In this document: positions 58,596-62,324 of the stretch, in pieces
Layout: every line of letters starts with the position of its first letter
Numbering within the stretch: the first letter of the stretch is position 1
From: Caulobacteraceae bacterium
GTDB lineage: Bacteria > Pseudomonadota > Alphaproteobacteria > Caulobacterales > Caulobacteraceae
Assembly: GCA_027487945.1 (NCBI GenBank)
Contig: JAIYCQ010000002.1
Span: 62,001 to 126,000, forward strand
Length of the DNA stretch: 64,000 nt
Direction of reading: 5' to 3'
Notes under the pieces: model-generated
Told to the model about the DNA's origin: nothing
Databases searched by the model: none
What the model saw: only the letters and a program-made list of their open reading frames with translations
Position numbers and translations under genes: made by a program

Positions 58596-59384
58596 ATGAC
58601 CCATGAAACCCTGCTCACCGCCGCGCCCGCCGAGGGCGTGCTGCTCGTCACCCTCAACCGCCCCGAGGCCGGCAACTCGCTGTCGACACGGATGGCGGAG
58701 GAGTTGCTGGCCCTGTGGACCGGTCTGGCCGCCGATCCCGGCGCCGTCCGGGCCGTGGTCCTGACCGGCGCGGGCGGCAAGATCTTCTGCGCCGGTGCGG
58801 ACCTCAAGGAGCGTGACGGCATGACCGACGCGCAGTGGGTCGCCCAGCACCGCCTGTTCGAGGCCATGCGCGACGCCCTGGTCGCCCTGCCGGTTCCGGT
58901 GATCTGTGCGGTGAACGGCGCGGCCTACGGCGGCGGGGCGGAGATCGCGCTGAACTGCGACTTCATCTACGCCGCCGAGGGCGCCCGGCTGGCGCTGCCG
59001 GAGGTCAAGCTGGGCATCATGCCGGGCCTGGGCGGGGCGCCCAACCTGGTCCGCGCCGCCGGCGAGCGCCGGGCCCGCGAGGTCCTGCTGACCGGCGATC
59101 CCTTCACCGCCGCCGAGGGCCTGGCCTGGGGCGTGGTCAACCGCGTCTGCGCCGCCGACGCGCTGGTCGCCGCCGCCGTCGAGACCGCCGGAAAGATCGC
59201 CGCCAACGCCCCGCTGTCGGTGCGCAACATCCGCCGCGTGGTGCGGGAGACGGCCGTGCTGACCGGAGCGGAGTCCATCGCCGTCGAACTCGCCGCCTAC
59301 GACGAACTCACCCCCACCGACGACCGCCGCGAGGGCGTCGCGGCCTGGGGGGAAAAGCGCAAGGCGGAGTGGAAGGGGCGGTAG
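58596..59384 (+). CDS. Enoyl-CoA hydratase/isomerase
   Basis: GGKIFCAGADLKERDGM; CAVNGAAYGGGAEIALNCDFIYAAEGARLALPEVKLGIMPGLGG; ATG at 58596. Confidence 0.9.
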   Translation: MTHETLLTAAPAEGVLLVTLNRPEAGNSLSTRMAEELLALWTGLAADPGAVRAVVLTGAGGKIFCAGADLKERDGMTDAQWVAQHRLFEAMRDALVALPVPVICAVNGAAYGGGAEIALNCDFIYAAEGARLALPEVKLGIMPGLGGAPNLVRAAGERRAREVLLTGDPFTAAEGLAWGVVNRVCAADALVAAAVETAGKIAANAPLSVRNIRRVVRETAVLTGAESIAVELAAYDELTPTDDRREGVAAWGEKRKAEWKGR

Positions 59385-59549
59385 GGGGCGAGAGGGGCTT
59401 GAGTTCGTTGGTGAGTGCATCATCTACTGAGCCTTGACAGCCGACGCCGGATCGCTTGAAAGTTGTGATGGGCGTTGGCTCTCCGAAACGGTTCAGCGCA
59501 TGGGTGCGACGTGGCGACAAACACTGGAGATGGCAGCAGGAAGGGCGCG

Positions 59550-59696
59550 GTGAAGGCGCGAATTCAGGCTCTCAATCCCGCGACCGGCCGCTACGTGAAG
59601 ATCGATACAGCGACTGGACGCATCATCGATCAGAAGAAGACAACCGGACCCTACAAGGGCGTCCGGGAGGTTAGCCTAACGTCGGGATCCAAGTAG
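59550..59696 (+). CDS. Small basic protein (about 48 aa), hypothetical
   Basis: GTG start with AGGAAGGG RBS: V/MKARIQALNPATGRYVKIDTATGRIIDQKKTTGPYKGVREVSLTSGSK; stop 2 bp before the next GTG. Confidence 0.6.
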   Translation: MKARIQALNPATGRYVKIDTATGRIIDQKKTTGPYKGVREVSLTSGSK

Positions 59697-59698
59697 GA

Positions 59699-60412
59699 GT
59701 GGCGCTAGTCTTCTCGCCGCTATCGGAAGACATCCTAGATTTGGCGCCACGGGCGCTTCACCCAAAGCATGCGTTCGTGATGCGGCAAATCGGCGAGCCG
59801 CCTGAAGTCGATTCCCGGATGGCTGCGTTGGTCATCGAGGCATTCACCCATCGGGGCGTACCCACCAAAGATGCGGATGCGACGACCGGCGGCGGAGATT
59901 TCCTCCAGCGCATTCTGGGCCTCATCAGGGGCACCGGCTTCACCATTGCGATCTTCTCACATGAAACCCGCGCGAACGCGCTGGCCAACATCATGCTCGA
60001 ACTGGGGTTTGCCGCGATGTGCGGCAACCCCTTGATCGTGGTGAAATCCAAGGAAGCGAAAGCTCCATCGGATCTGACCCGCACAGACTGGGTCGCCTAC
60101 GATCCCGATGACGAGGCCGGGTTCGTGCGCAAGCTCAACCAGGCCCTGGACACGATTTCGGCGGTGGGAGAGTACGAAGAGGGGCTCCTCGATATCGCTC
60201 TCGACGCTCACTCGATTGACTACGCCGTCGCCCTCGAGCGCGCGAGCAAGTCGTTCCTGTTGACTGGACGGCCCGCCATTCTCGACAAGGCGGAGCAGGT
60301 TCGAACGCGCCTGAGGACAGCGATGGCCGGAGCGCCTATCGCGGATCTGGAGCGACTGAAGTCGGAGCTGTCGATGTTCATCCGGTTGGGCCGAGCTGCC
60401 GCCGCGGCTTAG
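59699..60412 (+). CDS. TIR-like / nucleoside 2-deoxyribosyltransferase-like protein, unknown function
   Basis: KHAFVMRQIGEPP ... DFLQRILGLIRGTGFTIAIFSHETRANALANIMLELGFAAMCGNPLIVVKSKEAKAPSDLTRTDWVAYD, matching the beta-alpha layout and N...ELG.A motif of TIR/NDT-like folds. Confidence 0.6.
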   Translation: MALVFSPLSEDILDLAPRALHPKHAFVMRQIGEPPEVDSRMAALVIEAFTHRGVPTKDADATTGGGDFLQRILGLIRGTGFTIAIFSHETRANALANIMLELGFAAMCGNPLIVVKSKEAKAPSDLTRTDWVAYDPDDEAGFVRKLNQALDTISAVGEYEEGLLDIALDAHSIDYAVALERASKSFLLTGRPAILDKAEQVRTRLRTAMAGAPIADLERLKSELSMFIRLGRAAAAA

Positions 60413-60455
60413 CTGAAGACGCGCACTCCATCCCCGACTCCCCTATATTCCTCCC

Positions 60456-62324
60456 GTGACCTCGCCCCCCGCCACCGATGCCCCCGCCCTCACCGGCGCC
60501 GCCCTGATCGCCGACCACGCCCGCCGTCTGCCCGACGGCCCGGGCGTGTACCGGATGATCGGCGAGGGCGGGGAGGTGCTCTATGTCGGCAAGGCGCGCT
60601 CGCTGAAGAAGCGGGTGATCCAGTACGCCCAGGGCCGCTTCCACACCAACCGCATCGCCCACATGGTCGACCTGACCCGGGCGATGGAGTTCGTCTCGAC
60701 GCGGACAGAGACTGACGCCCTGCTGCTCGAGATCAACCTGATCAAGCAGATGAAGCCGCGCTTCAACGTGCTGCTGCGCGACGACAAGAGCTTCCCCGAG
60801 ATCGTCATCCGCCGCGAGCATCCGGCCGCCCAGTTGCGCAAGCACCGCGGGGCCCACACGATCAAGGGCGACTATTTCGGGCCGTTCGCCTCGGCCGGGG
60901 CGGTGAACCGCACGCTGAATACGCTGCAGAAGGCCTTCCTGCTGCGGTCCTGTTCCGACAGCGTCTACGAGAGCCGCACCCGGCCCTGCATGCTGCACCA
61001 GATCCGCCGCTGCGCCGCACCCTGCACCGGCCTGATCGCGCTGGACGACTACGCGAAGCTCGTCGAGGAGGCCGAGGCCTTCCTGCGCGGCAAGAGCCGG
61101 GCGGTGATGGCCCGGATGTCGCAGGAGATGCAGGCCGCCAGCGATGAGCTGGAGTTCGAGCGCGCCGCCCGGCTGCGCGACCGCATCCGCGCCCTGTCGG
61201 TCGTTTCGCAGGAGACTCAGGTCAATCCCGAGACCGTCGACGAGGCCGATGTCTTCGCCCTGTTCGCCGAGGGCGGGCAGGCCTGTGTCCAGGTGTTCTT
61301 CTTCCGCGCCGGCCAGAACTGGGGCAACCGCGCCTACTTCCCCCGGGTCGACAAGAGCGACTCCGACGCCGAGGTGATGAGCGCCTTTCTGGGCCAGTTC
61401 TACGACGACCGGCCGCTGCCGCGCTCGATCCTCGTCAATGTCCAGCCGCATGAGCACGAGCTGCTCGGCGAGGCCTTCAGCATGAAGGCGGGCCGCCGGG
61501 TCGAGATCGCCCGACCCCGGCGCGGCGAGAAGAAGGGGCTGGTCGAGCAGGCGACGCTGAACGCCCGCGAGGCGCTGGGCCGGCGCATGGCCGAGGGCTC
61601 GGCCCAGGGCAGGCTGCTGGCCGGCGTGGCCGAGGCCTTCGGGCTGGAGGCGAGCCCGGAGCGGATCGAGGTTTACGACAACAGCCATATCATGGGGACC
61701 AACGCCGTCGGCGGCATGGTGGTGGCCGGACCCGAAGGCTTCCAGAAGAACCAGTACCGCAAGTTCAACATCAAGGGGACCGAGCTCACCCCCGGCGACG
61801 ACTACGGCATGATGAAGGAGGTGCTGCGCCGCCGCTTCGCCCGCCTGGTCAAGGAAGAGGAGGAGGGCGACGACAGCGCCCGCCCCGACCTGGTGCTGAT
61901 CGACGGCGGCAAGGGCCAGCTGGACGCGGTGCTGGAGGTCATGGCCGACCTGGGCGTCGACGATATCGCCGTGGTCGGGGTGGCCAAGGGGCCGGATCGC
62001 GACGCCGGCCTGGAGCGGTTCTTCATACCGGGCAAGACGCCCTTCATGCTCGAGCCCAAATCGCCGGTCCTCTACTATCTGCAGCGGCTGCGCGACGAGG
62101 CCCACCGCTTCGCCATCGGCACCCACCGGGCCAAACGCACCGCCGAGATGAAGCGCAATCCCCTCGACGAGATCGACGGCGTCGGGCCCGGCCGCAAGAA
62201 GGCGCTGCTGCATGCCTTTGGCTCTGCCCGGGAGGTTGGCAAGGCCTCGGTCGACGATCTGATGAAGGTCGATGGCGTCAGCGGACCGCTGGCGCAGCGC
62301 ATCCACGACTTTTTCCGCAAGTGA
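60456..62324 (+). CDS. uvrC: Excinuclease ABC subunit C
   Basis: GIY-YIG region [31 protein letters not shown]-terminal HhH; GTG start. Confidence 0.96.

Follow-up and report, generated by a model that had tools for sequence, protein, structure and literature searches.

A candidate two-gene antiphage module with a predicted TIR/NDT-like protein and a small PDC-S38 partner in a Caulobacteraceae bacterium

Two short genes lie between a gene for an enoyl-CoA hydratase (crotonase) and uvrC in the genome of a Caulobacteraceae bacterium, and the question that they raise is what such a pair does there. The stretch of DNA that was analysed, here called the window, comprises 64,000 nucleotides (positions 62,001 to 126,000 of contig JAIYCQ010000002.1, assembly GCA_027487945.1). 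An earlier note on this DNA, made from the sequence alone, had placed the cassette between ordinary metabolism and uvrC, as is indeed the case, and had taken it for a candidate defence or signalling module. Our reading, held with moderate confidence, is that the pair is a horizontally acquired antiphage module of the abortive-infection type, which joins a glycosidase resembling TIR proteins and nucleoside 2-deoxyribosyltransferases (NDT) to a dedicated small partner. Put forward here as a candidate, it probably represents a new antiviral module of small size.

The larger gene occupies positions 59699–60412 of the forward strand and encodes 237 amino acids from a GTG start, just as it had been read before; it was characterized by its open reading frame, homologs, an AlphaFold2 (AF2) model, Foldseek and a profile alignment. 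For the smaller gene, the basic nature of the product and its end 2 nt before the large gene were retained, but the start assigned at 59550, giving 48 amino acids, had to be moved. Relatives of the protein begin with M-A-(K/T)-N-T-G..R.G.V, which is encoded in the window from a GTG at 59511, and the start was therefore placed there. The gene spans 59511–59696 (forward strand, with its stop at 59696) and its product of 61 amino acids, MATNTGDGSRKGAVKARIQALNPATGRYVKIDTATGRIIDQKKTTGPYKGVREVSLTSGSK, has a pI of about 10.5. On comparing relatives, the substitutions at the three codon positions were 5/9/32 and 8/6/27 for the small ORF and 44/34/122 for the large one, the comparison with the small ORF of L023 being left out. 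Third positions take most of the changes in both ORFs and both are therefore under protein-level selection, which confirmed them as real genes rather than products of chance.

The pair was found to sit in a segment that holds little else. Positions 58605–59387 and 60433–60700 of the window align to a congener (L090; UvrC 94% identical), in which the crotonase gene and uvrC are 188 bp apart and the aligned flanks enclose an unrelated 188-bp spacer. In the window, 1045 bp (59388–60432, no strand assigned) stand between the same flanks, with the two genes only inside. The cassette had been described as less GC-rich than its neighbours, and the values agree, at 61.1% for the insert against 69.4% for the window, and a GC3 of 0.71–0.76 for the pair against 0.93–0.94 in the crotonase gene upstream and in uvrC. 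Few genomes carry the large gene: counting the window's own, it was present in 2 of 150 in the family and in 3 of 387 in the class, a patchy distribution. The insert of about 1.05 kb is best read as a recent horizontal acquisition, and the chances of the whole antiphage module reading appear roughly balanced. No sigma-70-like promoter was found and no terminators above expectation, and no tRNA was found in the window. No known defence gene adjoining the pair was identified in the window itself, where the pair lies among housekeeping genes.

To examine the association of the two genes, 85,462 species, each represented by one genome, were scanned with a profile of four sequences of the large protein. 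The scan gave 13 loci, 12 of them distinct (the protein of L026 is also that of L034), and the small gene is directly upstream of the large gene in all 13; the scan was keyed on conserved peptides of the large protein, and highly diverged relatives lacking the small gene might escape it. Two loci, L024 and L029, are identical to L002 and L003, which also came from genome searches. The same arrangement is seen in L083 (equal to L004; 43% identical) and in L059 (28% identical, from another class), so that, with the window included, the small gene directly precedes the large one in 15 of 15 distinct loci. In relatives the two genes overlap by up to 4 nt or stand up to about 15 nt apart, and in L033 the large gene is split over more than one frame. 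The hits of a wider profile search were confined to remote NDT-like proteins whose architecture differs. In the uncharacterised proteins of L085, L086, L087 and L088, an NDT-like domain was observed fused to other regions, among them a histidine-specific methyltransferase (L085) and a long extension at the N-terminus (L086).

Type II toxin-antitoxin pairs typically have a small basic gene upstream that overlaps or abuts the gene for the effector, and the short gap in the window conforms to this layout, as does an insert of two genes alone. Here the large protein would be the toxin by itself and the small one a classical antitoxin that binds its own promoter, with stabilisation of mobile DNA as the main effect. 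Coadaptation of the two proteins would suit such a pair, and their distances are correlated (Mantel r 0.71, p 0.0013; r 0.40, p 0.023 without the outlier L059), though shared ancestry by itself can give such values. However, no operator-like motif shared by the regions upstream of the small gene was found; nor was the pair found in the plasmid and phage collections searched, or any relative of the large protein in the phage, plasmid and IMG/VR collections. The distribution of the small protein also bears on this alternative.

By sequence, the small protein is a member of PDC-S38, an unpublished and uncharacterised candidate family of PADLOC, for which no naming paper was found in the literature searched. 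The PADLOC profile PDLC05010 (PDC-S38) matched the 48-aa form with an E-value of 8e-15; by genome search, the match was 6.4e-21 over positions 2–54 of 57, which covers the profile over its length, and phrog_12550 matched at 1.5e-12. The earlier note had not recognised a pairing with so small a protein. The small protein itself belongs to a described candidate family seen beside many unrelated defence genes. PADLOC lists PDC-S38 as a single-gene candidate, whereas here one branch of it has a fixed effector partner. The CapK/CapS pair was considered as a possible identification of the small protein but was set aside, since CapK is described as a kinase and CapS as STAS-like (PMC13373217).

PDC-S38 occurs in about 3% of the genomes sampled (class and phylum) and in 67 plasmid and 15 phage records, and members from different phyla share a conserved core. 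Phages of Staphylococcus, Microcystis and Streptococcus (L006, L007 and L008) carry it as a stand-alone gene, near repressor or antirepressor genes in two of these three phages (L006 and L008), with contexts taken from annotated phage records only. A family that also occurs alone in phages and by many unrelated systems, often at a gap of 50–300 nt, is unusual for a dedicated antitoxin, and we consider a toxin-antitoxin pair unlikely. The branch structure is a point in favour of the antiphage module with a dedicated partner. The 15 enzyme-linked small proteins form one clade (support 0.968) and have K-[ILV]-D and a Tyr, in GPYKG, whereas the other 29 have K-R-[DN] and a Phe, in FKG. Family-model searches that were independent of the large gene found the enzyme at 4/4 loci of the [ILV]D...GPYKG branch vs 0/20 other loci (Fisher 9e-5), the 20 being the 23 fetched loci minus three with the enzyme and the window being the fourth enzyme locus. 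Every locus examined that has the [ILV]D...GPYKG branch also has the TIR/NDT-like enzyme.

The R[DN]...FKGV branch of the family adjoins CBASS, AbiTii, Thoeris/Septu and ubiquitin-like loci. PDC-S38 lies beside a CBASS cyclase and SAVED-PDDEXK (L076), AbiTii (L009), a kinase (L018), and a PD-(D/E)XK protein together with a helicase (L051). On a Phocaeicola vulgatus plasmid (L014, 1–5165) it stands between PtuA-PtuB and a set of Thoeris genes (TIR, ThsA-like SIR2, TIR), and on Novosphingobium pCAR3 (L021, 2501–4600) it precedes multiubiquitin, ThiF/E1-like and DUF6527 genes; these are observed cases without a background rate, and some loci have no defence gene. A gene annotated as retron HNH in L014 matches PtuA and PtuB within one protein. 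Divergent WYL-domain regulators adjoin PDC-S38 on plasmids of Klebsiella, Sinorhizobium and Serratia (L010, L011, L017 and L020), which possibly reflects a shared regulatory arrangement in the four loci. Such varied company, the WYL regulators and a basic protein with so widely conserved a core favour another view, in which the small protein is no partner but a nucleic-acid-binding leader or regulator of general use, placed before many defence operons and controlling their expression, with the large protein acting alone like SpbK or Swarozyc. The pairing with the enzyme is, however, branch-specific and at near-zero spacing, and no DNA-binding fold was recognised in the small protein, the model of which (pLDDT 72) gave no significant Foldseek match. 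A general regulator of this kind therefore seems improbable.

The neighbourhood survey proposed in the earlier note showed complete co-occurrence in the sample and, for several relatives of the pair, a defence or mobile context. Gabija (GajA 5e-303, GajB) lies beside the pair in L059; L033 has a type II restriction enzyme nearby, L030 an AbiJ-like/PDC-S32 protein, L022 an integrase and L028 a PIN-domain protein, the flanking proteins tested having been picked by eye and without a background rate. Some other copies lie among housekeeping genes, as in the window.

Searches of Pfam, NCBIfam and PADLOC with the large protein, the TIR family models included, gave no match at E-values up to 10, and no characterised defence effector was matched at the level of sequence; phrog_3634 matched weakly. 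Sequence searches against the PDB gave nothing meaningful, and a profile search gave weak helical matches only. The AF2 model, computed with 12 relatives, has a pLDDT of 86.8 and a pTM of 0.85; strands and helices alternate to about residue 136, and four helices follow. From the secondary structure of the model and from Foldseek, a TIR/NDT-like domain is predicted for residues about 20–136 (59756–60106, forward strand). The all-helical region after it, residues about 139–236 (60113–60406, forward strand), would be a candidate sensing or oligomerisation domain. The best PDB matches in Foldseek were TIR-STING (1.3e-4), NDT, SARM1 TIR and SpbK (9phb), with a TM of 0.66–0.71 for SARM1 TIR (target) and of 0.54 for SpbK, and the best viral matches include CMP hydrolase and TIR proteins. 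A TIR-like flavodoxin/Rossmann fold is supported by the model, though the predicted fold is one common to TIR and NDT and does not separate the two. The TIR/NDT-like fold and the helical C-terminus suggested from the sequence were thus both recovered by computation. Two outcomes had been set beforehand as counting against the idea, namely a protein with no Rossmann/TIR/NDT fold, and homologs never found with the small ORF and in housekeeping contexts only; neither occurred.

All 14 sequences compared share Asn97, Glu101, Leu102 and Gly103, and the invariant Glu101 (codon 59999–60001, forward strand; N-I-x-L-E-L-G) is the candidate catalytic residue. A profile alignment puts N97-x-x-x-E101-L-G in register with N-V-x-x-E-L-G of NDT-like proteins, so that E101 takes the place of the catalytic Glu in the ELG motif of NDT. 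These intermediates alone reach the PF05014 profile, below Pfam's cut-off, and DNPH1/Rcl weakly; the large protein itself has no direct match to PF05014. In NDT and DNPH1, this Glu is the nucleophile, and TIR NADases have their catalytic Glu at the corresponding place. The fold and the N-x-x-x-E-L-G-x-A...G-K-P pattern, shared with NDT and DNPH1 through the intermediates, would also be expected of an ordinary nucleoside- or nucleotide-processing enzyme, NDT or DNPH1-like and serving salvage or sanitation, that happens to stand beside an unrelated small gene. The large protein differs from the NDT/DNPH1 family, however, in its added C-terminal helical domain and its linked small gene, and the obligatory partner, extreme patchiness, insertion and defence neighbours make an ordinary enzyme very improbable.

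The nearest functional precedent for the pair is DUF4062 Swarozyc, with SpbK as another. Swarozyc is a TIR-like NADase of abortive infection, distant from both TIR and NDT, and activation by the phage portal is described (PMC13174449). The pair resembles Swarozyc in a TIR-like domain remote from TIR and NDT, a conserved Glu, a C-terminal auxiliary region, patchiness and an occurrence in defence islands; it differs in that no DUF4062 match was found in the large protein and a small partner is always present, whereas none is mentioned for Swarozyc in the part of its report consulted. SpbK is a TIR NADase of abortive infection (PMC12847820). It is among the best structural matches listed above, and abortive infection by loss of NAD+ would be the outcome in both cases, but no sequence similarity to the large protein was detected. 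To our knowledge, no small partner of SpbK is known. The two genes of the insert match no model of Thoeris, which has ThsA and a TIR gene, ThsB.

If the pair is an antiphage module, the 237-aa protein would be the effector, a TIR/NDT-like N-glycosidase that, once active, may cleave NAD+ or another nucleotide via Glu101; we infer this activity, its gating and a phage trigger, while the pairing with its linkage and insertion, the fold, the conserved Glu and the defence context of some relatives come from computation. The C-terminal helical domain might hold the inactive form or bind the trigger. The 61-aa basic protein would be made in coupling with the effector, as its dedicated partner, and may either keep the effector off, like an antitoxin, or report a phage-derived signal to it. 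Strict linkage, matching branches, the correlated distances of the two proteins, the fold, Glu101, insertion, patchiness, defence company and the precedents of Swarozyc and SpbK speak for the module reading; on the other side, known effectors are not matched by sequence, TIR and NDT folds are not separated, NDT-fold enzymes also serve ordinary nucleotide salvage, the window shows no known defence gene beside the pair, and what is proposed for the small protein is a guess. Between these points, our confidence stays moderate. More tentatively, and rather doubtfully, PDC-S38 could be a plug-in (a shared sensor, gate or regulator) of many unrelated antiphage systems, with the pair as a branch fixed to a new TIR/NDT-like glycosidase and the stand-alone phage copies as possible decoys or regulators of the phages' own.

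If true, the module reading would add a TIR/NDT-like effector family unseen by Pfam, NCBIfam and PADLOC. Two genes in about 1 kb would also offer a minimal setting in which the role of the widespread, uncharacterised PDC-S38 may be learned. Because PDC-S38 is also seen with CBASS, Abi, Thoeris/Septu and ubiquitin-like loci, the answer would reach further and could explain a control or sensing step common to several systems.
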